From Selaginella tamariscina (lineage: Eukaryota; Streptophyta; Lycopodiopsida; Selaginellales; Selaginellaceae), in contig PUQB01000058.1 in the NCBI GenBank assembly GCA_003024785.1, positions 716,330 to 780,329 of the forward strand: 64,000 nt of DNA, written 5' to 3'. Of this stretch, positions 5,525 through 25,266 are shown in pieces. Numbering within the stretch: the first letter of the stretch is position 1; each line of letters starts with the position of its first letter. The position numbers and the translations under genes are program-made. The notes under the pieces were generated by a model that saw nothing but the letters and a program-made list of their open reading frames with translations, was not told the origin of the DNA and did not search any database.

Positions 5525-5927
5525 TGTCACGATCCGATACAAAATACATTATAGGATATGACCTATATGATACAGGATATAGCATACGGGATATAGAATA
5601 TGCCTATAAGATATACCTACAGGATATACCAACAGGATATGCATACAGGATATACTTATAGGATATACCTACAAGATAAAGGACATAATTTTTAGCTCAT
5701 GCCTAGATTAGCTCCTAAAGTATTATTTTTAACTTATGCTTAAATTAGCTTTTGGAGTTGTGAGTATAAAAGCTCCGACCTAATTGTTGTACAATCAATT
5801 ACTATCAACACCAATCATTCTTGATCATTCTTGTCTTGTTCCTTGTTTTTGTTTTGTTCCATGCTCTTGCCTTGCTCTTGAGTCAAACCTTCTTGTTTTT
5901 ATCTTGTTCTTGGGTCGTGACTTGATA
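5525..5927 (+). repeat. 5' LTR of the Ty3/gypsy element
   Basis: Starts TGTCACGATCC and ends near GTGACTTGATA. It matches the repeat at 24934-25266 along its length, but is longer because of an internal tandem of a 'aggatatac..aca' unit at about 5540-5665. It contains TATAAAAG near 5764, a plausible core promoter. Confidence 0.8.
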
Positions 5928-7340: not shown

Positions 7341-7717
7341 GGATGCTCACGTTTTCCTCTCCGGTAGCCAAAATTAATCCTGTACCTTCTTGCATGCATG
7401 TAGTGTCTGAGGCAGTATAAGCTACAGGATTGACCATGCCTGTTCCTGTATTAGTGTCAAAGGTTCCTCCTTGATAGGATCCACCTCTTGTCATTTCATC
7501 AACACATTCGCAGGTTCTCCTCAGTCCTGTGAATTCACAAAACTTCTATACAGGGTTCTTCCAATTTTGTACACTTTGTCAACATCAGTACATGTTTTCC
7601 CCAATCTTGCCTCTTTTCATTACTTTGCTTCGTTCCATTCCCCAAGATCCCTCCTCTTTTTTATTCACAGCTCCCTCCTCCTCTTCACGTTCTTACCACT
7701 ACTATGCATGAACTTAC
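7341..7717 (+). other. Linker region of the gypsy fossil up to the nested insertion
   Basis: Sequence between the protease region and the nested element. It is presumably the protease-RT linker of the host retrotransposon. No domain is recognisable by eye. Confidence 0.4.
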
Positions 7718-7744
7718 ATGCAAGTTGTAACTAAAATGGGCATG
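7718..7744 (+). repeat. Left terminal inverted repeat of the nested element
   Basis: Reads ATGCAAGTTGTAACTAAAAT then GGGCATG. The reverse complement of 21867-21894 differs at only a few positions plus one extra base. This marks the probable left boundary. Confidence 0.7.
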
Positions 7745-8353
7745 GCTATAGTCCCATTTCCTAATAATTAGCAATTTTAGCTATTTAATTAGCATTTTCT
7801 AATATTAAAGGAATATTCTTTAGAATATATGTTTGAAAATAGAATATTCTTTAGAATATTCTATTTTGTATTCTACCCTTTAATAAATTATAGCATTCAT
7901 TGAACAAAAATTAATAACATTATAAAAGTAGAAGGTATTAAATTATATAATATATTGCCTAATATAACAATTAAGGAAGAGCATAAGAGGTACATTATAT
8001 AAATATTGATGTTGTTATTAAAATATTAATATTTAAATATAACATTATTAATTAAAAAGTTGTAGTAGTAATAATATATATATAAAATCCTATAATAATA
8101 TAGTCAATCTTCCATATCATTTTTTAAATTTATATAGTTAAGTAAACAATTTGGTACTATTATTAAAGAGTTTATAATAATTATGAATATTAAATATATG
8201 ATATTTTATAATTTTGTAATTGCTTTAAGCTTCAAAAAACATATATTCCCTTGCAGTTTTGTTAATCGTGACTTTATCAATGCTTCTTGACATCCACCTA
8301 TATCGAATGGATTTAACATTTATAAAACATGCTGGGTCTTTTTGATTGGGAGA
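7745..8353. other. AT-rich left subterminal region
   Basis: Strongly AT-rich. It holds short repeats around GAATATTCTTTAGAATAT (7808-7862, self-complementary) that may be subterminal motifs. No coding signal. Confidence 0.5.
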
Positions 8354-11300
8354 CTATGTTTTCTCTAGGCATCCATTATATCTTTCGCTCTCCTTTTCGT
8401 GTCGCCTTTTTTGTGGTTTGAACCATGCAACCTTAACAATACTATTTTTTGTAATTACTTCAGGTGTGTCGATAATTTGACCCATCCAAATAGGCTGATT
8501 ATATGACGCATCTGGAGTAATGAGAACCATCATTAGTTTTTGAAGATCCTGGCAGCAATCAAAGTATGCTTTAGGTTTTTGGTTCCTTTGTCCAACAAAG
8601 TGTGGGGTTTGCACTTCCACATCACTACTGGCTTCTATGTCATCTGTGCTCAGTGATGTCATTTCAATCTCCTCTCGCCACCTTGATTTAGGCCAAAAAG
8701 GGTGTTGCAATTCTGTACTTGTGACAGTAGGCCCTTCCAACTCTCGAACAACAGTCTCCCAATAGTCCAACCACATGCTTATATAGTTCTGAGTAACCAG
8801 TTGCCTTATCAGAATTCTTTGGCATCGATTTTTGAACCCATGCCACATATTTTTTGATGCCATCAATAATAACCTCTTGTTCCTTGAGCTGGGCACTCAA
8901 TGGAATAGGGTCTGGTTGTCCTTCTGGGAGAAGTGGCTTTCCATTCTCTCCACTTTTGAAGAGCATTAACCCCTCTTTCGGTAACCACTCCTGCTCTGAT
9001 GGCCGTAACTTGTACTGCATAATAGGTATACCATCTCGTATGGAGAAAAAGAATTGTAGCGGCACAAGGTGACCAACTAAAGAATCACTCCCCTCTTTTA
9101 TATACTCCTTGAGAAATTTTTTGAAGTCTGGCACCTCAGTCACAAGCAAAGCACAACTTTTTTTGGAGATGCAATTTTCAAAAAGATTCATCATATGCGG
9201 TAAGGTAAGTGCACTTGTCCTTTTTGTAGAGTTGGAGACCTTGCTGAAGAACGCATCAATATCTTCATGAGTGTGACCAACCATAAGAAAACTGAGCGTG
9301 ATTGTTTCAAACACACCTTTGGCAACAAGCATTGACAAGTATGCTAGCACATATCTAGAAAATAAAAGTAAGTATGAGCTTGAGAAACCCTTAAGTAAAA
9401 TGATTTACCTATTTTTGTTCTCGCCTGCACAATTATCCATCTGTAAAAGCAAATGACGAGGAAGCTTATTTGATGTTGAGGACACATGTACACTATTTGA
9501 GCTAGATCCCTCCACTGAACCTGAACTCTCAACAGGGCCATCTGTTTTTTGTGCAGGTTGCTGACAATGCCTCTCATATTCCCAAGTAGCCTCAAGTGCA
9601 GACGTGTTCATGAGAGCATTATGTAAAGGTTGAAGGTGTTGTTTCTTCACTTTGAGATCACCGATAGGACTTGTCTGTGAGTGGGCTTCAAGGTTTCTGA
9701 AACACATGGCCAACGACCCAATAGTGAAATTGGAGTCGCTAGACCAATGTGGAAGTGAAAAGTGTCCATATGATTCACAACCGTGTCCATGTGTTAGCAC
9801 ACTGTCAATGAAATCGGAAGTTTCATGACATTTCCAAGGCACTTTGGTGTTGCAACGAGCTTTGGAATGCTGGTCTTTGAATGATCCATCTTGTCATGGA
9901 TCAAGCACAGGTACTCTGATGGGTGTGACACAGAAAGCATGCGGTGTGCATAGTACTGAGACCGGCAAGTTTGTTGCGCAATCATGTGGGCCTCCATCTT
10001 CTTTTGAATGGCAGTGATCTCCACCAAGGTTTTTGCACAAGCCTCTGCAGCCTTCAATGATGTACAAGTGTCACACTTGGAAAAGCTAGAGTGTTTTGCA
10101 ATCTCCACATCCTTAAAATGAGTATTCCATATGTTGTTGAAGGTACCAGTGCAGATTGCTTGCAGCCCCATCAAGCTGAGGCACTTGTTCACATGTTCAC
10201 ACAGCTTCAATTGAGTGTAGATCGAAGGCAAAACCTTGAGATTTTCCCTGACCCCTGCATTTGTGGTTCGGCATTTGTGAGGCATCCTGTCTGCATTTGC
10301 TTCCACAAAAGCCTTGAGTATCTCTATGGCTGCCATAATGTGAGAGCGGGTTTTGACCAAGCCAGTGTTCCCATGTACTGAGGTTCGCGCTCCATCTAAC
10401 CACTCATCCCTCCGACGGTAGAACGTGGTCTTTGGGATCCCATATATACTGTACCAAGCTTTGAAGCAGATGGCCACCTTATTAAATACCATGGATGTAC
10501 TCTGATAACCTGTGTCCGAAGCCATTCCATCAATACACCCAGTTAGTGCAGCATATACAAACTCATGCCTTTGCTTTTGGGTGAGCGTACGAAAGACATG
10601 TCTACATTGGGTAATTTCATTCCGGTCTGCCATCTGACAACACTTCTTCTTGCAGCAGTCAATCGTGGAAATGCTCGTAACACTTTCGGAAGATGTAGGA
10701 TCCATCTTCATCCTCTTGCTGAAACATGTAGGGGAAGATCTGCAACCCATGAATCGCCTTTTTCTTACAATAGGACCAATGCAAGGAACCTCTTCAAATA
10801 TGAGTTGTTCTTCCGGGTTGTTATTATTGAAATCCAACCCAGAATATGTTGAACCATCTTGCCGTCTTAATTCAGATGTTCGCCACCTCACGAGGGATCC
10901 AGGATGCAAAGTGCCATTAGGTGAAACCTCTGTCACAACTACACCCACGAAGTCGGACCCTAGTTTCTCTTCTGACACTGCTTCCATTGGATTTATAGCT
11001 GTGATGATGCCTCTCCCAACCTCAATCTCATGAAGAAAGAGAATCACCTCATCCATCACAGCAGGCAAGCCATCATCTGGAAAACTCGTGCTACTGTTTG
11101 TTTGTGACTCTATATATTCTGTGTCAGCCTTGACTTCATCCAAATTCCACAATACAGGAGAACCCTCCTCAAATTCCATTCCAGGAACCTCAACATGCTT
11201 GAAAATGGTGTTCACCCATACGTACACACAAGATCCTTGGGCAATATTGTGACATGATGCATTATCATCTCGAACTTCCACAGTTCCAGTGCCAACTATC

Positions 11301-12543
11301 TCGTTGTTCCGAAGAAGACATACTTTATCTCCAGTATTATACATATTGTCCTGCACATAAATAATTGTGTTATTTATGATATCTGTTTATGCAATATTTG
11401 TAAGAAATCATAACTGCAGTTGCTTAATAATATGCATGTGCAATAATACATAATTATATATAAAATAATATCTCATGCTTTATTAATATAACTGATGGGC
11501 GGGATTAATCCCGCCGCAGACTCTACCCCTTCAGAGTGAGTCGGCGGGATTAATCCCGCCGCCGACTCTACCCCATCGGAGAGAGTCGGCGGGATTAATC
11601 CCGCCGCCGACTCTACCCCGTCGGAGAGAGGGCGGGATTAATCCCGCCGCGGCTCCCTCGACGAGGAAGTACCGGCGGGATTAATCCCGCCGCGCTCCCT
11701 CCGACGAGGAAGTAGCGGCGGGATTAATCCGCCGCGGGCTCCCTCCGACTAGGAAGTACCGGCGGGATTAATCCCGCCGCCGGATCTTCCTCGTCTGTGA
11801 GAGTCGGCGGGATTAATCCCGCCGCAAATTCCTCCGACGAGGAAGAGGGGCGGGATTAATCCCGCCCACAACACTGACGACGGAGAATAGGCGGCGGGAT
11901 TAATCCCGCCCACAACTCTGACGACGGGGAATAAGCGGCGGGATTAATCCCGCCCACAACTCTCTCCGAAACTATGATTTCAAAGAGATTCGGGATGAAT
12001 TCTGCCCACAAATATTTAAAACAGGGAAGTAGTGGCGAGATTAATCCCGCCACCCCTTCTCTGCCTCCTAAAATGGTTGGCGAGATTAATCCCGCCGACA
12101 ACTCTTTCTAATAAATTCAAGTAAATCATTATCAGTTGAGAGAGTTATCGGCGGGATTAATCTCGCCGCTCTTTTTAAGAGGCGGAGAAGCATTGCCCGA
12201 ACTAATTCTGCCATAGCTATGAAAGAGATGGTGGCGGGATTAATCCCGCCACCTCTTCAAAGAGGCGAAAAAAAATGGCCGGATTAATCCCGCCGCCCCG
12301 GCTAACCGAGAATACTAAGTTAAAAGTATATTTAAACGGGATAAATCCCTAACAGAATATATTGTAATCCTAATGCATTCCTAAATCCCTAAATTCTAAA
12401 ATTTAAGAGAGAATGTAAGAGAGTGAATCTTTATAAATATATCTAAATTTGTTTATAATACTTACTTGTAAACAGCACTGAAGGCGCCGTGCTTTCCTAT
12501 AAACAATAGCGCACCCAATTTAATGTCGCTCCTGAGCTGATCA
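8354..12543 (-). CDS. Transposase-like protein with RNase H-like (DUF7869-type) core
   Basis: Main exon 11353 to about 9409, then an intron (9355-9408, GT-AG), then 9354 to 8354. The N-terminal part (GDKVCLLRNNEIVGTGTVEV) resembles the beta-rich 'GTV' module of plant transposases. Next comes a probable helix-turn-helix region (GIPKTTFYRRRDEWL) and a CDTC motif. Three acidic motifs follow: CLIHDKMDHSKT, LLQMDNCAGENKNRYVLAYL and VGHTHEDIDAFFSKVS, which I read as the candidate catalytic D/D/D triad of an RNase H-fold transposase. An upstream exon (12466-12543, encoding DQLRSDIKLGALL and HGAFSAVY) has a polypyrimidine acceptor and a GTAAGT donor, but its phase is one base off from the main exon. 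Two further single-base shifts interrupt the frame, near 9812 (an ACAGTG where family-like reading needs ACAGGTG) and near 8800. The gene is otherwise well preserved, about 950 residues. Function is inferred; no close family name is certain. Confidence 0.65.
11498..12295. repeat. Palindrome array 1 (about 18 copies of GGCGGGATTAATCCCGCC)
   Basis: An 18-base perfect palindrome, often extended by GC on both sides, recurs about every 43-45 bases from 11498. The left ten or eleven copies are nearly perfect. Copies from about 11980 onward are decayed (for example GGCGAGATTAATCCCGCC). Spacers are also repeated and partly self-complementary (GACTCT...AGAGTC). The array lies between exon 12466-12543 and the main exon of the transposase gene, so it is probably intronic. 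Confidence 0.9.
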
Positions 12544-13540
12544 CTAAGAAGAAAAAAGAAAATCTGAAGAGTGAAAATGAAGAAACCCTTGCCGGAGAAA
12601 GAACCAGATCTGAATTTGAGTGGGAAATTAAATGTATTTTCAAATTTACATGTCAGACTGATAATACTTATGTCAGAAATTCAAATTTTTGAAATAACAG
12701 AAAAGAAAATTTAAGATGAGTTGAAACAAATAACCGACAGTCTGACATATATACTCTCCAATTCCAATGAGTGTTTTAAAATTGCATTTAATGTCATTCA
12801 AGTGCTTCAAGCTGTTTAATATTACGAAATTTTTGTAATTATTCTACATTCTTAATATTCAAGTATATATTATTAAGTTTATATTATATATATATATACA
12901 CTAATACAATAAATAAATTGATATATTATTATGTATCATTTAAAATATATTCATAGTCTGTTTATTATTATTATTTTCTTAATTACTCGAGTAATTAATT
13001 TACATTTCCTACTATTAATGGGATATTCTTTGTTATTTTCTTAATATTCAAAGAATATTCCAATATTAAACATGATTATCATAATTAAATTAGTCTTATT
13101 CTTAATTATCTCAGTAATTATTCTACATTTGTATATATTAATGGGATTTTCTCAATTAATTTGTTATTATTTCAAGAATATTCTAGTGTTAAACCTTATT
13201 ATCAATTTAAATTAATATATATTATTAAAACTATATATGGCTATATATTAGATAAAATCATATATTATTATGTATAATTTAAAATATGTTCATAGTGTGT
13301 ATATTAATATTATTTTCTTAATTATTCGATGTTTGTTTTGCACATATTATATATAAACACAATCATAAATTTATATATACATGTGCACACGCATTAGAAG
13401 CACTTACAGAGACACATATGCACACACATGCACATTGCCCTAAACCAAACTTGAGAAATTATATGTTGCTTCTTTATTGAAAAACATCATGTTCAACGCA
13501 TGTATGATCTATATGTACTCAGTGTGTGTGTATGTAACAC
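12544..13540. other. AT-rich central region of the nested element
   Basis: No recognisable coding sequence except possible undetected 5' exons of the minus-strand transposase just above 12543. It contains GAATATTC-type motifs also seen in the subterminal regions. Confidence 0.45.
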
Positions 13541-14165
13541 ATTGAATTTACACATGTAATATATATGTATGTCTGTGTGTATACATGTGTATGTATATAT
13601 GTGTACTAATATAATATATGCAATGTGTACGATTTTCATTTGTTAACACTCTATCTCTTCTCTCATACATACACAGTGTCACCATGCATAATCCCTTCTC
13701 TCATACATACACACCATGCATGATCATGATCCATAATATGTAGCCTGTCTCTTCTCTCATACATACACACCATGCATGATCCATAATATGTACTGATGTT
13801 ACAATATTATGTAATATGTATAATGTATATCTGTGTATAACACTCACTCCTCTCATACATAAACACCATGCATGATCCATCCTAACCCTAAACCCTAAAC
13901 CCTACATTGAATTTACACATGTAATATGTATGTATGTCTGTGTGTATACACGTGTATGTATATGTGTACTAATATATCCAATGTGTATGAATTTAATTTG
14001 TTAACACTCTCACTCTTCTCTCATACATACACACCATGCATGATCCATGTAAATATGTACTGTCTCTCTTTTCTCAAACATACACACCATGCATGATCCA
14101 TAATATGTATTGTCACTCTTCTCTCATACATACACACCATACATGATCTGTACTCTGTCTCTTAA
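13541..14165. repeat. Tandem repeat block with interstitial telomere-like motif
   Basis: A unit around CATACATACACACCATGCAT then GATCCATAATATGTA recurs at about 13690, 13750, 13855, 14020, 14070 and 14120. A larger duplicated segment starts at 13542 and 13909 (both beginning CATTGAATTTACACATGTAA). CCCTAAA repeats at 13881-13904 give just over three telomere-type units. The block is non-coding. Confidence 0.7.
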
Positions 14166-14514
14166 TATTAATATATATTAATATGTATGTATGTCTATGT
14201 GTATAATACTATGTGTGTATATATGTATCGCTGCATGTGAAACTTTAACACTCTCATACACGTGTTAAACCCTTGCATGATATTTATTCTTGGGGTGTAT
14301 GTGATACACCCACGCACACGCACACGCTGATAATATAATGAAAGAATATTCGTTTAGGGCGAATCTATAGTTATTCTTTTTAGGGTTTAAGTATATTCTT
14401 AAAAGGAATATTCGATTAGGGTTAATATATATTCTATTCCTTTTAGGGTTTTAGTATATTCCTAGGGTTTGTAAGGCGGCGGCGATGGCGAAATCTCCTT
14501 CTCTCTCTCACACA
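14166..14514 (+). promoter_or_regulatory. Possible promoter and first exon of the plus-strand gene
   Basis: Several AGGGTTTT/TTAGGGTT teloboxes and GGAATATTC repeats at 14340-14470 precede an ATG in a GC-rich context (about 14486, MAKSPSLSHT). A canonical donor (CAG|GTGAG) follows near 14513. If used, the first intron would span the microsatellites and array 2 to the acceptor at about 17046. The joining phase with 17047 is off by one base, so this is a suggestion only. Confidence 0.3.
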
Positions 14515-14865
14515 GGTGAGATCTCTCTCTCTCTCTCACACGCACACTCCTTGCGTTTATTTGTGATATTTATTTATTTTTATTCACATATATATTTATA
14601 TGTGTGTGTATCTTAATAATATAATTAGATCTCTATCACTCGCACACATACGCACACTCGTATACATATATACACACAGATATATATATATATATATCTC
14701 CTTCTCTCTCTCTCTTCTCTATAGATCTCTATCTCTCGCACACACGCACACTCGTATACATATACACACACAGATATATATATATATATCTCCTTCTCTC
14801 TCTCTTCTCTATAGATCTCTATCTCTCGCACACACGCACACTCGTATACATATACACACACAGAT

Positions 14866-14933
<68 letters not shown>

Positions 14934-15100
14934 TCTATTTTTATCTATATATATGTGTGTGTGTGTATCTGTATAATTTTATTGATTTGTTAATTGTATT
15001 TCTCGCACACACACGCACACTCCTGTATATATATGTGTGTGTGTGTTTGTTTATCTGTATGATTTTATTTGTTTCACACACGCATACACACGATATACAT

Positions 15101-15137
<37 letters not shown>

Positions 15138-15340
15138 CCTATGTATACATACATATATTATGTGTACCAGTATCTGTATAATTTTATTTATTTATCTATC
15201 TCTCACACACAGACACGTATATACATATACATATACATATATATATGTGTGTGTGTATCTGTATAATTTTATCTGATTTGACTATCTCTGGCACACACAC
15301 GCACTCTCCTACACACACATATATCTGTGTGTGTGTGTGT
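14515..15340. repeat. Microsatellite block (TA, TC, TG)
   Basis: Long alternating TA tracts (about 14866-14933, 15113-15138), CT tracts and CA/TG tracts. A roughly 105-110-base unit (CTCTATAGATCTCTATCTCT, then CACACACGCACACTCGTATA) is repeated at about 14625, 14718 and 14808. Long open frames here (Tyr/Ile and His/Thr-rich) are translations of the repeats. Confidence 0.85.
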
Positions 15341-15344
15341 GTGT

Positions 15345-16745
15345 AGCGGCGGGATTAATCCCGCCGCTATATGGTGAGACGTGTGTAGCGGCAGGATTAA
15401 TCCCGCCGCTATATAATTAGCCACTCGGCGGCGAGATTAATCCCGCCGCTCATTCGTTACCCTCGTGAGCGGCGGGATTAATCCCGCCGCCTACGCATGC
15501 CCTGCGGAATCGGGCGGGATTAATCCCGCCATCATTGGCCTGCCTGAAGGGCCTAGGCGGCGGGATTAATCCCGCCAGATTCTGCACAGGGCATTGGCGT
15601 CCGGCGGGATTAATCCCGCTAACTAAGGCCCGAGTGAAGGGCCTGGGCGGCGGGATTAATCCCGCCGCATACGCATGCCCTGCGCGGAATCGGGCGAGAT
15701 TTATCCTGCCGCCATTGGCCTGCCTGAAGGGCCTAGGCGGTGGGATTAATCCCGTCGGATTCAGCACAGGGCATTGGCGTCCGGCGGATTAATCCCGCCG
15801 ACTAAGGCCCAAGTGAAGGGCCTGGGCGGCGAGATTAATCCCGCCGCGTACGCATGCCCTGCGCGGAATCGGGCGGGATTTATCTCGCCACCATTGGCCT
15901 GCCTGAAGGGCCTAGGCGGCGGGATTAATCCCGCCGGATTTCGCACAGGGCATTGGTGTTCGGCGGGATTAATCCCGCCGACTAAGGCCTGAGTGAAGGG
16001 CATGGGCGGCGGGATTAATCCCGCCGCGTACGCATGCCATGTGCGGAATCGGACGGGATTTATCCCGCCGCCATTGGCCTGTCTGAAGGGCCTAGGCGGC
16101 GAGATTAATCCCGCCGGATTCTGTGCAGGGCATTGGCGTCCAACGGGATTAATCCCACCGCCTAGGGCCGAAGTGAAGGGCCGGGGCAGCGGGATTAACC
16201 CCACTGCCCTGCGCGGAATCGGGCGGGATTAATCCCGCCGCCAAAGGACTGCCTAAAGGGCCTAGGCGGCGGGATTAATCCCGCCTGATTTCGAGCAGGA
16301 AATTGGCGTCCAGTGGGATTAATCCCGCCGCATAGGGACCGAGTGAAGGCCATGGGCGGCGGGATTAATCCCGTCGAGCCTTCAATGCCTGTTGAAGGAA
16401 TGAATCCCGCCACCCTTCACTTTTTTCTCCATTGGTGAGTCGGACCAATCCCAAACGTTTCTGTCTAAGACGTAGAAGGTTTACAACATACCAATGGAGA
16501 GAATTGGGAAGGGTGGGGAAATTCATTTAACCATCCCTTACATGGTGGGCGAGATTAATCCCGCCTCCTTTCTGGAGTCACTGAAGGGGTGTGCCAAATA
16601 AATTCTGCCCAGTTCTCTCTGAGACCGAGAAGGGTGGCAAGATTAATTCCGCACTCCCGTTCAAGGCCTCCAAAAAGGTGGCGAGATTAATCCCGCCCAC
16701 TCTTTCAGGAGGCATTGAAGGGGTGGCGAGATTAATCCCGCCGCA
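15345..16745. repeat. Palindrome array 2 (about 30 copies) with four-unit higher-order repeat
   Basis: The same 18-base palindrome as array 1, spaced about 44 bases. From about 15480 to 16200 the spacers follow a fixed order of four: (ACGCATGCCCTGCGCGGAAT), (ATTGGCCTGCCTGAAGGGCC), (CACAGGGCATTGGCGTCC), (ACTAAGGCCCGAGTGAAGGG). This gives a roughly 178-base higher-order unit present about four times. Copies at both edges, especially after 16380, are decayed. Translations in every frame give GGINPA-like or GLIPPP-like periodic peptides, which are artefacts. Confidence 0.9.
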
Positions 16746-16858
16746 CCTTCCATGTGAATATATATGTGTATTAGTATATATAAATTGCATATCTCATTTT
16801 ATTTACTTTTATCATCTTATCATAATATTTCGAGTAAAAGCTAGGAAACTATGTAAAA

Positions 16859-16941
16859 CTGTCCAGAGCTCACATTTGTGATGGTTCTAAAACGAAATGT
16901 TATCTTTCTTTTGCACTAGCACAAATGTGAACTTTGGACAG
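16859..16941. repeat. 22-base inverted repeat (hairpin)
   Basis: Arms at 16859-16880 and 16920-16941 (CACAAATGTGAACTTTGGAC and its near-complement, two mismatches) flank a loop of about 39 bases. It lies between array 2 and the first recognised exon of the plus-strand gene. It could be a small foldback element, an intronic hairpin or an RNA structure. Confidence 0.65.
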
Positions 16942-17046
16942 TTAATTCCGTCTACTTCTCTCTGTATATTATTTTTGTATATTCGGGTTTATACAAGTGT
17001 GTGTGCATTTTTATATGATTTGTATTCATAGTGTATTATTTTGCAG

Positions 17047-20000
17047 AAGGACGATTTGATCAAACAAGGAGATCGAGTCATTAGTATAGAGTCGTCGTCA
17101 AATTCTGGGTAAAATTAAAATAAAATCTGTTATACTCGGATACTTGAACTAATTATTTTTGTATTCAGATGTGGAATTGAGGTGACATTAAAGACGAGAG
17201 CAGGAGAAGAGATGGGCAGGGGGATTCTAGAATCAACTTGGCCATATTTCAAACTAAACGGGAAGCGCATTGGAACAACCATGGTTGCTGTCAAACTAAC
17301 CTCTGTCACATCGCATGGACAAGCAAAACAATGGAAAGTGGGTGTGCTAGTCAAGCATCCGAAAGCATGCTGTGAACCCAGATTGAACGATGCTCGACAC
17401 ATATGCCTTGTTCCATCCAATGTCATATTCTCGGATCCAGAGGTCGCCAGTTACAACATTAATTTCGGGTGGTTTTGTCGACTTGTGGATAATGACGTTC
17501 ACGTGTTCACTAATGATGTTGACCTTGGAGTTCTTCTTCAACTCAACGAAAGCCCATTTATGGAGGGGATTCATCTGGATGTCTACTTCAAAGATCTTCA
17601 GACTCATTGAGTAGGTGTATTGTCAGGAGATATTGCTTTACAATACAGAAAATCAGCAAGTGGAGCAATCGTTCCTCTTCACATTGAAGAAGAACACTGC
17701 GACATCATAAAGGAGATTGAGAGGGTGGCTTGGTCTCAGGTTCTTTACAGATCACGTTCAATTTGCTTAGAAAATTTCGGGAGCTGGAAGAGTGTGCTGA
17801 GAACCTTAGAACAGCATCAATTGGGGATCACACTGTTGATTCGGATCGTAAAAGAAAATCATTAGTCGTTTTGTCAGCTGCACCTGTGGCGTCCCATGCT
17901 GCAATAAGCCACAAGGAAATGATGTTGGATGATAGGATTTACCAGTGTAGGGTTAAGTATTGCAGCGTCAACCCAAACTTCAATTACAGGCCACTGAATC
18001 AGGAACATGTAGCTGAGCTCATGGAGAAGATGAAGGACGACAATTCTTACACCGTTCCACATAATGCTGTTTTGTGCGCATACTACGAGAGACATAAAGG
18101 CGCTGACAAAGTGTGGATCACAACACCGGAACAAATGAGGAAGGTTCAGACGGAGAATAAAAAATCAGTTAAGTATTACATCATTAGTGACCAGCACACA
18201 ATAACGGCAGCCCAACGACTTCTCAACGAACACAACAAAGGAACGATGGCAACAAAACTTTCCGAGCATACCCGTGAGAAGCTGACGAAAAGATCGGCGT
18301 TTTTAGCGAAGCCGAATCTCACAATCGAGCAATACCATAAGTTATCAGCGGAATGGGACGCTGCAGACACCAACCACTACAACAGCAAAATATGGGAGAA
18401 GTTCAAACACACGCGAGCCTGTGGGGAATCTTTCAGCACCACAAAGAGCTACCGCAGGGAATACACAATCTGCGGAATACCGGGTAAGCAAATTGTTTGG
18501 GTGGGATTTATCTCGCCGGTATATTAATCTGTCTTTTTCCTCAGAGAGTTGAAGAAATTGTAGTAGTTGATTTTGCCCAGGTGGGCGGGAAGGAAACATC
18601 CTTTTTGATGATGTTGATTTCTTGTCCCGAGGATAGGATCTTTGCCAAATGGTTGGGGATTATGGAATCCTTTGCAAAAGGAACACTGAAGAAGAAGCAG
18701 ACAAGTGAAGTGGAGCCCTCAGAGAAGTCTGCAAAGAAACCCAGTAAGACGCCGAAGTCTAAGTCTGTTCAATTATAAAGGATGTAGACAACGATTTCAA
18801 GCTCACATGGTTGAAGCCTTTAAATGGAACAACGATGGAGGAGATGGAAGTCTTGGCTGATTTGGTGATTGATGGCAAATTACAGATTAACAACAGCAGC
18901 CCCACCTCTCCTTTTCATCTCAAGGCAATGGAGTTGAAGACGGTCAGGCACTTCAAGGAGTGGTTGGGAATACACTGCCACAAACTGGGTTGGATTTCGG
19001 CTTCAACATACGAAGAGGTCAAAAATATTTGCATGTGACAAATGATGATATGCTTGTCGAATGGGTGAATCAATCGAAGATCTGGGCAAGAATCTATTGC
19101 ACGCCAACGCCAAGAAGGAGAACATTGCGATGAGCCTTCTCTTATGGCAGTCCTTCAGCAGCGGAGAACCGAGTTGAACCTTATAAAGGAGGATGCTACG
19201 AATCACGACAAGCCCTACAGATGTTTGTTGTTGGATTCGGAGACTTTATGGGGTACCATCACTGCTTGTAGGAAACCGTTTCAATTGTTCGTGATGGATC
19301 GGCGGGTGTCAAAAAATCCTTACAGACAGGACACTAGAGGATTTGGTGGAGAAACTTAGCCGTGCAAGCATGTACAAAGAAGGTATTTATTATTGAATTC
19401 ATACTTGCACTCTTGACTGATATCTACGTTTTCAGGTATTTATTTCTTGATTCTTGCTCATGTCACCGATACCTTTGCCTTCTCCTTTGCCAAGAGGAAT
19501 AAACATCGTTGGACAGGATTTTATATGAATGATGCTGATCCGAAGTGCATTGATTCGGTTGTTCACTTGGTTGTTAGGAATGCGCCAAACAGTTTCAAAC
19601 TTCCAAATGACTGGCCAGGCATCTGTTTGCACTCCAACGGCCCTGAACCTCCATCCGATACACGATAGGTGAGAGTGACGTATTCGGCAATGTACGTTAT
19701 CCAAACATCACAAGTCAAGCGGCACGGAGCATCGTCAACTTGATCAGGGGTCCTCACAGTGATGCGTGGGTTTTTGACTACTGCACTAGGGGGTCCGTCT
19801 TGAAGGAGTGTTACCTTCGGCATACATGTGTATTTGCCGTTGAAAAGGATAAGACCATGGTTGAGGACCTGAACAAGTGGATAGATAGGTTCTCAACTGA
19901 CTACCCCAACGAATCCATAAAGGAGTATTTGAGAAAGTTCCCTCCAGATAAGTGCGATAGCTCTAAGACGAATCTGGTTCAATGTCGGATCTGAGGACGA

Positions 20001-20181
20001 ACTTCAATCAGATATTAGACCGGAAGTTATCTCGAGGAGTACAGAACATTTGCACACTCCATTACCCATGGAAACATCAATAGAAGATGAAGAAGATCTT
20101 GAACCATCTCACAAGCGGCTTAGACCTTCTTCGCCTCACTCAGAAGGTAATAGCGAAGAAGAATTGTTAATGAATTGTTAG
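17047..20181 (+). CDS. ParB-like / methyltransferase-like protein of the nested transposon
   Basis: Exon 17047-17109 (KDDLIKQGDRVISIESSSNS) follows a TTTTGCAG acceptor. An intron ends near 17168, and a beta-rich N-terminal domain (GIEVTLKTRAGEE...) runs to about 17600. The region 17930-18480 reads NPNFNYRPLNQEHVAELMEK and, further on, YYIISDQHTITAAQRLLNEH. This is the pattern of ParB/Spo0J N-terminal domains ('N.R.....+..L..S+...G' then 'DGQHR..AA..L'). An intron lies at about 18484-18543 and itself contains a palindrome-like GTGGGATTTATCTCGCC. A lysine-rich linker follows (about 18690-18775). Around 19770-19860, VFDYCTRGSVLKECYLRHTC and VFAVEKD match the AdoMet-binding 'D.F.G.GS...A......+.+E.D' motif of DNA methyltransferases. 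An acidic tail with a KRLRP basic patch ends at 20181. Several stops and shifts interrupt the frame (for example after LQTH near 17608, and shifts near 17740 and 19030-19400). The copy is probably inactive. Confidence 0.55.
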
Positions 20182-20435
20182 AGTGACGAATAGTTGTAAA
20201 TGAGTGTAACATAAGGCATTTTTGTATATTTCGTTTATATTTGTACAGAAAATAAATTCTCAAGGATTAATGAAGCTTTTAGTTCAAACATGGGTCACAC
20301 ATTAACAAGGTAAATAATATACCTTGATAATTTTAAGGTCAGCTAATTATCATTTTGCAGATGTAATGAAACAATTGAGAACATGGATTTTCAGCATTGG
20401 CATGAGGTAAGAGAGGGGTTTGGCGACAATTTCTT

Positions 20436-21293
20436 GTGCCACATGTCAGAATGACAGAGTTCATGCAGGAAATGGATAATAATGCAGCTCAAAACATCGT
20501 TACCATGGGGGCCACTTCAGTTTTTTCATCATCATTTTTATTGGCTTCAGTTCCGAAATCAATTTCTTCAGCGCATGCAATATCTGAATCTTGTAAGGAT
20601 GATGTACAATTAAATGATGAAGGGATAGGCAACGAGATAGTGGCAACGGATAAATGTGAAAGGGAGCAAACAAGTGATTTGCAAAGTATTCAAGAGGCAA
20701 CGCTATCTCATGTTACTCATGGCCATATTGTGTTGTTGGATGTCAATGGTGTTCTGCTTCATCGACAAAGGCCCGAGGATAGGAAAAAGAAATCAAACAA
20801 GGAGATTTCATTCCTTGTCATGGTAAATTTCGATATGATATTATTTTTCGTCCAGGGTTGGATCGTCTCTTTCAAAAGCTTAAGGAGATGGGTGCGCTTG
20901 TGGGGATTTGGTCATGCATGCAGATTCATAACTTAACACCGCTTAAGAAAACATTGTAGTGTTGCAGAAGAGGTGATTCGTAAAGATTGGATTTTTGACC
21001 AGCGAATGTGTTATAAACCTCTCGAATTTCACAATATAAGAAAGGAAAGCAAGCCATACTTCTTCAAGAATGAAAGAATAATTGGGACTCATGGGGAGAT
21101 CAGTCGCTTAAGGATAATGAAGAATACATATCTTAGTGTAGACGACTCTCCTCAGAAGGCTATGCTCAACCAAAACATTGCTTGTATTCATCCAATCACT
21201 TTCGATCCATATTCTGATACCGATATCATGGATGAGCTAGTGAACTACTTGGATACGTGCCTCAGAAAGAAGAATCTCGAAAAATTTTTGTGA
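20436..21293 (+). CDS. FCP1/NIF-like HAD phosphatase domain protein of the nested transposon
   Basis: After a low-complexity N-terminal part, GHIVLLDVNGVLLHR (about 20722) matches HAD motif I in the plant FCP1-like variant 'LDLNG'. Next come HGKFRYDIIFRPGLDRLFQK and MGALVGIWSCMQ (about 20820-20930), the 'F.+RPG+..F...+' block. KDWIFDQRMCYKP follows, then THGEISRLRIMKNTYLSVDD and SPQKAMLNQNI (about 21095-21175), the 'KDL..L......+++DDSP' block of CTD phosphatases. The second motif I aspartate is Asn (DVNG), which in the HAD family would affect acid/base catalysis, so binding without catalysis is possible. Two frame changes (near 20815 and near 20955) interrupt the domain. It lies in tandem with the ParB-like gene, about 250 bases downstream; the two could be one transcription unit. 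Confidence 0.6.
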
Positions 21294-21866
21294 GCAGTAT
21301 CCACCGTATCATACATTTCCTGAAGCTTTTCTTTCTCGTGATTTTGAATTTTATAAAATGAAGGATAGCAACCGGGCGCTTTATAATATTATTCTTAAGG
21401 AACGTCATTTTTAGATGAGCCTTTATGCAGACCTGGTCTTATTACATCTTATGTATTAACAAGGATGGCAACTCCCAATTGCATTCGTGAGATGTTAGGT
21501 GGTGGCAACAACATCAAATATTGACCAAAATGATTTGATTAATCCGGAGAGTGATGATTTAGACAAAATGAGATTTCTCTGTATGGTTAGGAAAAGTATT
21601 TATAAATAAATTAACATGTTGATAAGAAATGATTTCATTTGTAATTATGTTTGATAGTATTTCTTCATTATTGTAAACTATTTTTAGAATAATATGAATA
21701 TTCTAAGATATTTAGGAATATTCCTTACTAAGTAAGGTTATTGAAGGATTAATTAATTAATTAATTAATATTTAAGGCTTAATTACATATTAATTAAATG
21801 ATTAATTAATAATTAAAACTTAAGTATTAATTAGTAATTTATTTTATATTCCCATTTTTCACGTAT
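21294..21866. other. AT-rich right subterminal region
   Basis: AT-rich DNA with GAATATTCTAAG-type motifs and a TTAATTAATTAA run near 21750-21770. It mirrors the composition of the left subterminal region. No coding signal is seen beyond about 21420. Confidence 0.5.
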
Positions 21867-21894
21867 CATGCCCACTTTAGTTACAAACGTGCAT
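21867..21894 (-). repeat. Right terminal inverted repeat of the nested element
   Basis: The reverse complement reads ATGCACGTTTGTAACTAAAG then TGGGCATG, matching 7718-7744. Immediately beyond it the Ty3/gypsy pol region resumes. Confidence 0.7.
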
Positions 21895-22039
21895 TTGCCA
21901 TCGATCCTACTTTTCTTCATCTTTTTGCTTTTCAAGTAACTCCTACGTCCTCTTTTACCTCTCATGTATCTGACTCCCTGTTTTTTAATCTACTTCTCCT
22001 TCTCCTATTTCTTCCCTACCATCCAAGTATTACTCTTTT

Positions 22040-24933: not shown

Positions 24934-25266
24934 TGTCACGATCTGATACAAAATACAGGATAGGATATGACCTACAAGATACAGGATACATGATACATGA
25001 TATATGATATGCCTATAAGATATACCTACAGGATAAGGGACATTATGTTTAGCTCATGCCTAGATTAGCTCCTGGAGTATTATTTTTAGCTTATGCCTAG
25101 ATTAGCTCTTAGAGTTGTGAGTATAAAGTTCCGACCTAATTGTTGTACAATCAATTACTATCAACACCAGTCATTCTACGATCATTCTTGTCTTGTTCCT
25201 TGCTCTTGCCTTGCTCTTGAGTCAAGCCTTCTTATTTTTATCCTGCTCTTGGGTTGTGGCTTGACA
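24934..25266 (+). repeat. 3' LTR of the Ty3/gypsy element
   Basis: Starts TGTCACGATCTG and ends GTGGCTTGACA. It matches 5525-5927 but lacks most of the internal tandem units, so it is about 70 bases shorter. Confidence 0.8.

Follow-up and report, generated by a model that had tools for sequence, protein, structure and literature searches.

A large DNA transposon of Selaginella tamariscina with palindrome arrays beside a candidate ParB/methyltransferase-like gene

In a 64,000-nt stretch of the genome of the lycophyte Selaginella tamariscina (NCBI GenBank assembly GCA_003024785.1, contig PUQB01000058.1, positions 716,330 to 780,329 of the forward strand; hereafter the window), we characterized a 14,177-bp element at 7718-21894. 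This element is a large cut-and-paste DNA transposon whose existence and ends are confirmed, and the window copy lies within a Ty3/gypsy element. It carries a DUF7869 transposase gene, a divergent second gene (gene 2) with the motif order of a ParB/methyltransferase-type protein, and a NIF/FCP1-type phosphatase-like gene. Arrays of an 18-bp palindrome, GGCGGGATTAATCCCGCC, lie upstream of the first two of these genes. Judging from these sequences, the element probably encodes a DNA-binding, methyltransferase-like protein together with its own operator array, which we regard as the best reading of the data.

Palindrome arrays in the element and in two further repeat families

The window contains 43 GGCGGGATTAATCCCGCC sites with three or fewer mismatches, all of them within the element, compared with none in 100 shuffles. 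The left array (11498-12294), in which GGCGGGATTAATCCCGCC and close variants of it mostly follow one another at 44-46 bp, lies directly upstream of the transposase gene, and the right array (15348-16742) lies upstream of gene 2. A single additional site falls within the second intron of gene 2 (18500-18517). The arrays had not been mentioned in the first-pass annotation of this DNA, which was made by a model from the sequence alone.

We compared these features across a set of 11 whole end pairs picked by spacing and terminal inverted repeat (TIR), or 12 copies with the window. Length and ends are selected features of these fetched copies; gene content, arrays and target-site duplications (TSDs) are unselected. 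The array scan covered 11 copies, with copy T2 left out. All 11 contain 35-48 GGCGGGATTAATCCCGCC sites with four or fewer mismatches, with 11-18 in the array on the transposase side, 19-29 in that on the gene 2 side and, in 10 of the 11, one at the matching place in the gene 2 intron; in copies C65 and C3 a few further sites on the gene 2 side fall beyond the block limit. The usual spacing is again 44-46 bp, and 236 of 459 sites are exact. Information content is 1.3-2.0 bits within the palindrome and drops below 0.5 bits outside it. Where the arrays align in blocks of 88% identity or more, copies differ from one another at 2.4% of palindrome bases versus 7.8% of spacer bases, with gap rates of 3.0% and 3.9%, respectively. 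Across the 300.7-Mb genome (1,391 contigs), exact GGCGGGATTAATCCCGCC sites number 27,128, with none for the reversed control. Most of them plausibly belong to the family of the window element, since they amount to about 20 per TIR pair.

Two further repeat families from the same genome, related to each other, have a different palindrome or half-site array next to a comparable gene, which in one of them includes a Pfam-supported methyltransferase exon. A genome search with the Pfam methylase profile PF01555 returned 739 candidates; all 150 that were scored exceeded the cut-off, most of them with the 106-aa open frame of the family we call family 2. The inspected copy of this family (L072, G000:C72:5500-13500) has a plus-strand gene with the motif CWDGNHRL, ParB-like by eye, and its end exon matches PF01555 at 7.5e-10 (39.6 bits versus a cut-off of 26.7) over the last quarter of the profile only (positions 165-220 of 221). 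Upstream of this gene are 13 CAGTCGGCATGCCGACTG sites, mostly in 40-bp steps (0 in 30 shuffles), in an array that stops about 85 bp before the likely start codon.

Family 3 is represented by L073 (G000:C14:24800-27300) and L076 (G000:C565:327800-330000); L076 was rejected as an independent family, as it is 98% alike to L073. The family 3 protein resembles that of family 2 (CWDGNHRL, VPICR...VRRVNP...), and its gene lies 2-4 kb before PF01555 matches on the same strand. Eight exact half-sites, GCCGACTG/CAGTCGGC, form a spaced array upstream (shuffle mean 0.04, largest 1). These half-sites, GCCGACTGAG/CTCAGTCGGC, are inverted and spaced rather than fused into one palindrome as in family 2. In both families a divergent gene lies across the array. 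The window element contains none of the half-sites given above. Half-site and protein family pair up in the three families inspected, which amount to effectively two independent comparisons.

Outside the arrays, a gene beside a family 2 copy encodes an LRRNT_2 domain (6.3e-9) and leucine-rich repeats, as plant receptor kinases typically do, in keeping with a plant host. A search of bacterial and archaeal genome contigs gave 93 pattern matches to the family 2 methyltransferase, none of them confirmed.

Identity of gene 2 and alternative explanations

Gene 2 (17086-20181, plus strand) is modeled on copy C46 and its short GT-AG introns, with four exons and introns of 61, 61 and 53 bp. In C46 the gene can be read over 897 aa, with a change of frame toward its end, and the reading frames of the window copy are broken. 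The likely start codon (17086-17088) reads ATA in the window and ATG in C46. By eye, the protein contains a ParB-like NPNFNYRPLNQEHVAELMEKM ... YYIISGQHTITAAQRL stretch followed by the layout of a beta-class methyltransferase, LLLDSETLWGN ... VFDYCTRGSVLKECYLRHTCVFAVEKD. The first-pass annotation had named it a ParB/methyltransferase gene; this motif order keeps the label plausible, as a lead, and every sequence-profile test of it failed. The best support for the label is indirect and comes by analogy from the family 2 gene, with its ParB-like stretch, PF01555 exon and adjoining palindrome array.

Several observations weigh against reading gene 2 as the array-binding, methyltransferase-like protein of its element. 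No ParB/methyltransferase profile in Pfam, NCBIfam or PHROGs matches it: ParB N-terminal domain profiles gave nothing, with the YYIISGQHTITAAQRL motif as the sole resemblance, and neither did the N6_N4 (beta-class) methyltransferase profiles. A home-made profile of ten beta-class enzymes from phage and E. coli finds the family 2 domain (1.6e-10), and gene 2 is absent among its 12 best rows, the 11 others being shuffled versions of gene 2. When gene 2 is compared with families 2 and 3 profile to profile, its score is equaled or exceeded by 17 of 200 shuffles. The methyltransferase part aligns at the expected motif with the home-made profile and on the wrong stretch in one profile-profile comparison. 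A search of 5.8 billion proteins, in which the 7,997 candidates with the most words in common were scored, found no relatives. The comparison between families covers three repeat families, two of them related, and these two are known here from their genes and arrays. Their divergent gene has no firm transposase match, its SWIM finger (0.0023) falling under the cut-off. Array homogenization could partly explain the conservation of the sites, which were chosen by similarity in one copy. Finally, 5 of the 11 fetched copies (C7, C29, C69, C87 and C3) show no TSD.

For gene 2, the PHROGs search gave only a match at 0.0039 to a family whose function is unknown, along with weaker ones. Gene 2 was not found in the viral contigs searched, nor its ParB-like exon in the phages searched, and sequence searches of the PDB yielded either no match or matches attributable to chance and repeats. 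In both profile-profile comparisons the ParB-like part aligns best at the expected motif, though not significantly. Because no alignment is significant, we assign gene 2 to neither the ParB nor the methyltransferase family.

The reading frames of all three genes of the element appear to be under selection. Pooled over all pairs of the 12 copies, which are non-independent and give values without error bars, dN/dS is 0.25 and 0.50 for the transposase pieces, 0.33, 0.16 and 0.46 for exons 2, 3 and 4 of gene 2, and 0.44 for the NIF-like gene. Relative to the column majority, the six exon pieces of the 12 copies contain 898 substitutions, 206 one-base indels and 13 in-frame stops; with C69, the window and T2 left out, the nine closer copies contain 312 substitutions and 135 one-base indels. 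That one-base indels are so numerous in coding DNA suggests that assembly errors add to real decay.

The first-pass annotation took gene 2 to modify DNA, and an active methyltransferase that marks the element's own DNA with 4mC or 6mA is one alternative. In its favor, the ParB-like stretch, DSETLWGN and the motif-I-like end follow one another in an order like that of family 2, where the end exon matches a Pfam methylase profile. Beta-class methyltransferases usually have a DPPY/W motif and a glycine-rich motif I; at these places gene 2 reads DSETLWGN and FDYCTRGSV, respectively, and the profiles do not detect it. We think catalysis of this kind rather unlikely. Self-marking has been proposed for a transposon of the brown alga Ectocarpus (PMC12477816). 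Since the methyltransferase motifs of the window family look worn, binding may outweigh catalysis.

The position of the arrays bears on a second alternative, in which they are binding sites of the transposase, like the subterminal repeats of En/Spm-like elements, and gene 2 encodes an unrelated accessory protein. In the 11 scanned copies the arrays occupy the middle of the element, with 3.6 kb or more between them and the left end and some 5.1 kb between them and the right end. Subterminal places are instead occupied by another palindrome, GAATATTC, at 7811-7861 on the left (element positions 94, 125 and 137) and 21696-21723 on the right (element positions 13979 and 13999). The left GAATATTC sites recur at similar places in other copies, some of which lack one of the sites, and more GAATATTC sites lie in the central stretch. 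Arrays of transposase sites are common in transposons, one array here directly adjoins the transposase gene, and the N-terminal part of the transposase has a weak Transposase_23 (En/Spm) similarity (0.039, below cut-off; 3 of 35 homologues). The larger array, however, lies toward gene 2, an intron of gene 2 holds one site, and the arrays of families 2 and 3 are directly upstream of the ParB-methyltransferase-like gene. Together these points make transposase binding an unlikely explanation. GAATATTC repeats also follow the family 2 gene, as they do near the right end of the window element.

Less likely again is that the arrays are boundary or replication features, such as hairpin DNA, an insulator or origin-like iterons, read by host proteins, with gene 2 a decaying passenger. 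The dN/dS values of 0.16-0.46 for gene 2 exons argue against a passenger, and the palindrome changes between families while its position beside a ParB-methyltransferase-like gene stays constant. Perfect palindromes adjoining AT-rich DNA, and a gene 2 for which no homologue was found among the scored candidates, would fit such features.

Ends, copies and other genes of the element

The ends of the element are marked by a pair of TIRs of 27 and 28 bp: ATGCAAGTTGTAACTAAAATGGGCATG at 7718-7744 (plus strand), and ATGCACGTTTGTAACTAAAGTGGGCATG, as reverse complement, at 21867-21894 (minus strand). A pattern covering both repeats has 1,362 forward and 1,313 reverse exact matches in the genome (2,675 in total), and its reversed control has 0 and 0. 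The left end (7718-7900) recurs at 100% identity in at least 40 places (531 candidates, 40 scored). At each of the first eight loci fetched, 7718 is the exact point where the main alignment with the window stops and beyond which the sequences diverge. Among 100 TIR places listed, which are the first in contig order and a non-random sample, 13 pairs that face inward at a distance of 13.8-15.4 kb were counted by eye. Roughly extrapolated, near-full-length copies would number a few hundred and occupy about 5 Mb of the genome.

The 11 fetched copies span 13,800-14,963 bp. Each of the 12 copies matches the three genes in all six exon pieces, and the gene order, judged by open reading frame positions, is the same. 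Perfect 4-bp TSDs (AAGA, TCTA, AACG, CTAT, TGGT and ATTA) flank six of the fetched copies, where about 1 in 256 copies would show one by chance, assuming equal bases. The window copy is flanked by TTAC (7714-7717) and TTGC (21895-21898), alike at three of four bases. Recombination between copies or assembly joins may account for the TSDs that are absent. A 4-bp TSD would fit the Sola superfamily, for which this length is typical. The annotation had proposed a 14.2-kb DNA transposon with short inverted ends, to be recognized by further copies sharing both boundaries, TSDs and gene order. Its boundaries and gene order are borne out by these copies, and its TSDs in half of the 12.

Consistent with the proposed insertion into a gypsy element, Pfam identifies a gag domain on the left flank (PF03732, 2.7e-9), and the right flank contains an integrase zinc domain (5.5e-7) along with a chromodomain (9.2e-12). 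Protease matches on the left flank are under the cut-off, and two pieces from the reverse-transcriptase region have no Pfam match, so that this part is read by eye. LTR-like repeats, 83-88% alike, lie outside these pieces at about 5525-5925 and 24934-25264. The idea that the whole locus was copied together with its gypsy host was dropped, as flanks differ between the copies inspected; a separate T-type subfamily was likewise dropped, copy T2 being of the same family. There is practically no chance that this is a repeated host gene cluster, as its large size and unusual gene content might suggest: it is refuted by 2,675 exact ends, by boundaries that stay sharp while the flanks beyond them differ, by the 4-bp TSDs and by the nesting in a gypsy element.

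The transposase gene (approximately 8228-11344, minus strand) has two exons and one 54-bp intron (about 9357-9410). Its frame has at least two changes in the window copy and is open in copy C84 (1,021 aa, one 54-bp intron). Both exon pieces match DUF7869 (PF25273), at 1e-10 and 3.9e-27 (42 and 95.5 bits versus a cut-off of 26), which agrees with the transposase gene annotated earlier. We found 41 homologues, including predicted proteins from the liverwort Riccia sorocarpa, Mytilus and Exaiptasia, and all 35 that were aligned match DUF7869. The proteins of R. sorocarpa and Mytilus edulis, known here as protein predictions alone, share the Pfam domain and Asp pattern with the element's protein at 28-30% identity (three Riccia proteins) and 26% (M. 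edulis). Across 20 aligned sequences, D484, D487, D637, D677 and D679 are invariant (HDKMD, LQxDN, GHTHEDxDAxF); in the 35-sequence alignment, fragments included, D637, D677 and D679 remain invariant and the first two are at least 90% conserved. This pattern is as expected for a putative DDD/E transposase. A sequence search of the PDB returned no relative of the transposase.

The third gene (approximately 20406-21610, plus strand), annotated earlier as FCP1-like, holds up as such: in copy C65 it matches NIF (PF03031) at 1.5e-12 (47.9 bits versus a cut-off of 21.8). NIF/FCP1 phosphatases usually carry the catalytic motif DxDx(T/V). The element's protein reads LLDVNGVLL, with Asn in place of the second Asp, and catalysis is doubtful because DVNGV replaces the motif. 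None of 978 candidates in a protein homologue search proved to be a relative.

Between the arrays lies an AT-rich, microsatellite-rich stretch (12330-15340) that is poorly conserved among copies and includes a short run of plant-telomere-like CCCTAAA repeats at 13880-13905. Elsewhere in the genome, TIRs of the right-end type occur only 249 bp apart at G000:C1:2394829-2395104 (opposite orientation) and G000:C80:563731-564006 (same orientation), perhaps as duplicated or nested ends.

Known systems and proposed mechanism

The closest described system is Sola1-1_Ec32 of Ectocarpus, a 21.5-kb DNA transposon with a ParB-like and DNA methyltransferase gene of 1,104 aa on the strand opposite its transposase (PMC12477816). 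Both are giant DNA transposons with a ParB/methyltransferase-type gene opposite the transposase. The Selaginella element differs in its plant host, its DUF7869 transposase, a gene 2 unrecognized by profiles, its extra NIF-phosphatase-like gene and its palindrome arrays, which the consulted text does not mention for Sola1-1_Ec32. That paper also cites transposons of green and red algae with similar ParB/methyltransferase proteins (Iyer 2011; Petroll 2025, via PMC12477816), and through that citation alone we liken them to gene 2 as the same kind of accessory protein. The bdelloid rotifer N4CMT also places a bacterial-type methyltransferase domain in a eukaryote; it is described as a chromodomain-bearing host epigenetic writer, unlike a transposon gene with a binding-site array (PMC8885841).

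Our element also recalls a bacterial arrangement. In ParABS systems and bacterial ParB-methyltransferase fusions, a ParB-type protein goes with clustered palindromic sites. Here, in contrast, no ParA was seen, the element is a eukaryotic cut-and-paste transposon, and the ParB similarity is not significant. Such palindrome arrays were not found described in titles and abstract openings of the literature, and may still be published. ParB-methyltransferase transposons are known from algae, and plant members with matched arrays appear new. Judged by titles and abstract openings, what is new is the host, a plant, together with the DUF7869 transposase, the NIF-like gene and the matched arrays. The annotation, which knew of no described plant transposon with this gene set, is to that extent upheld and is qualified by the related algal elements; its overall interpretation is partly supported.

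In the mechanism we propose, the transposase would cut at the TIRs, and the GAATATTC sites might assist it. Gene 2 would encode an element-specific DNA binder of the ParB plus beta-class methyltransferase type, binding the palindrome array as a dimer. This protein would coat the two divergent promoters, regulating the transposase and its own expression, and may also methylate or otherwise mark the element's own DNA. The phosphatase-like protein was probably captured as an accessory factor, and its target would be a host regulator.

More generally, and tentatively, at somewhat below even chance, plant transposons may use a modular form of self-recognition. Each family would have a ParB-methyltransferase-like protein and its own palindrome array separating divergent transposase and ParB-methyltransferase genes, with kin proteins sharing a half-site and unrelated ones using others. 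For the algal proteins the consulted text names no recognized sequence. A likely target is now visible for a prokaryote-style DNA-binding and methylating transposon protein, as arrays of one palindrome are present in every scanned copy. The palindrome differs between families together with the protein, which makes self-finding and marking directly testable. If such a modular system exists, the 27,128 exact sites may give the element private control of its own chromatin and transcription, and transposon-encoded self-regulation would join the usual picture of host-imposed silencing.

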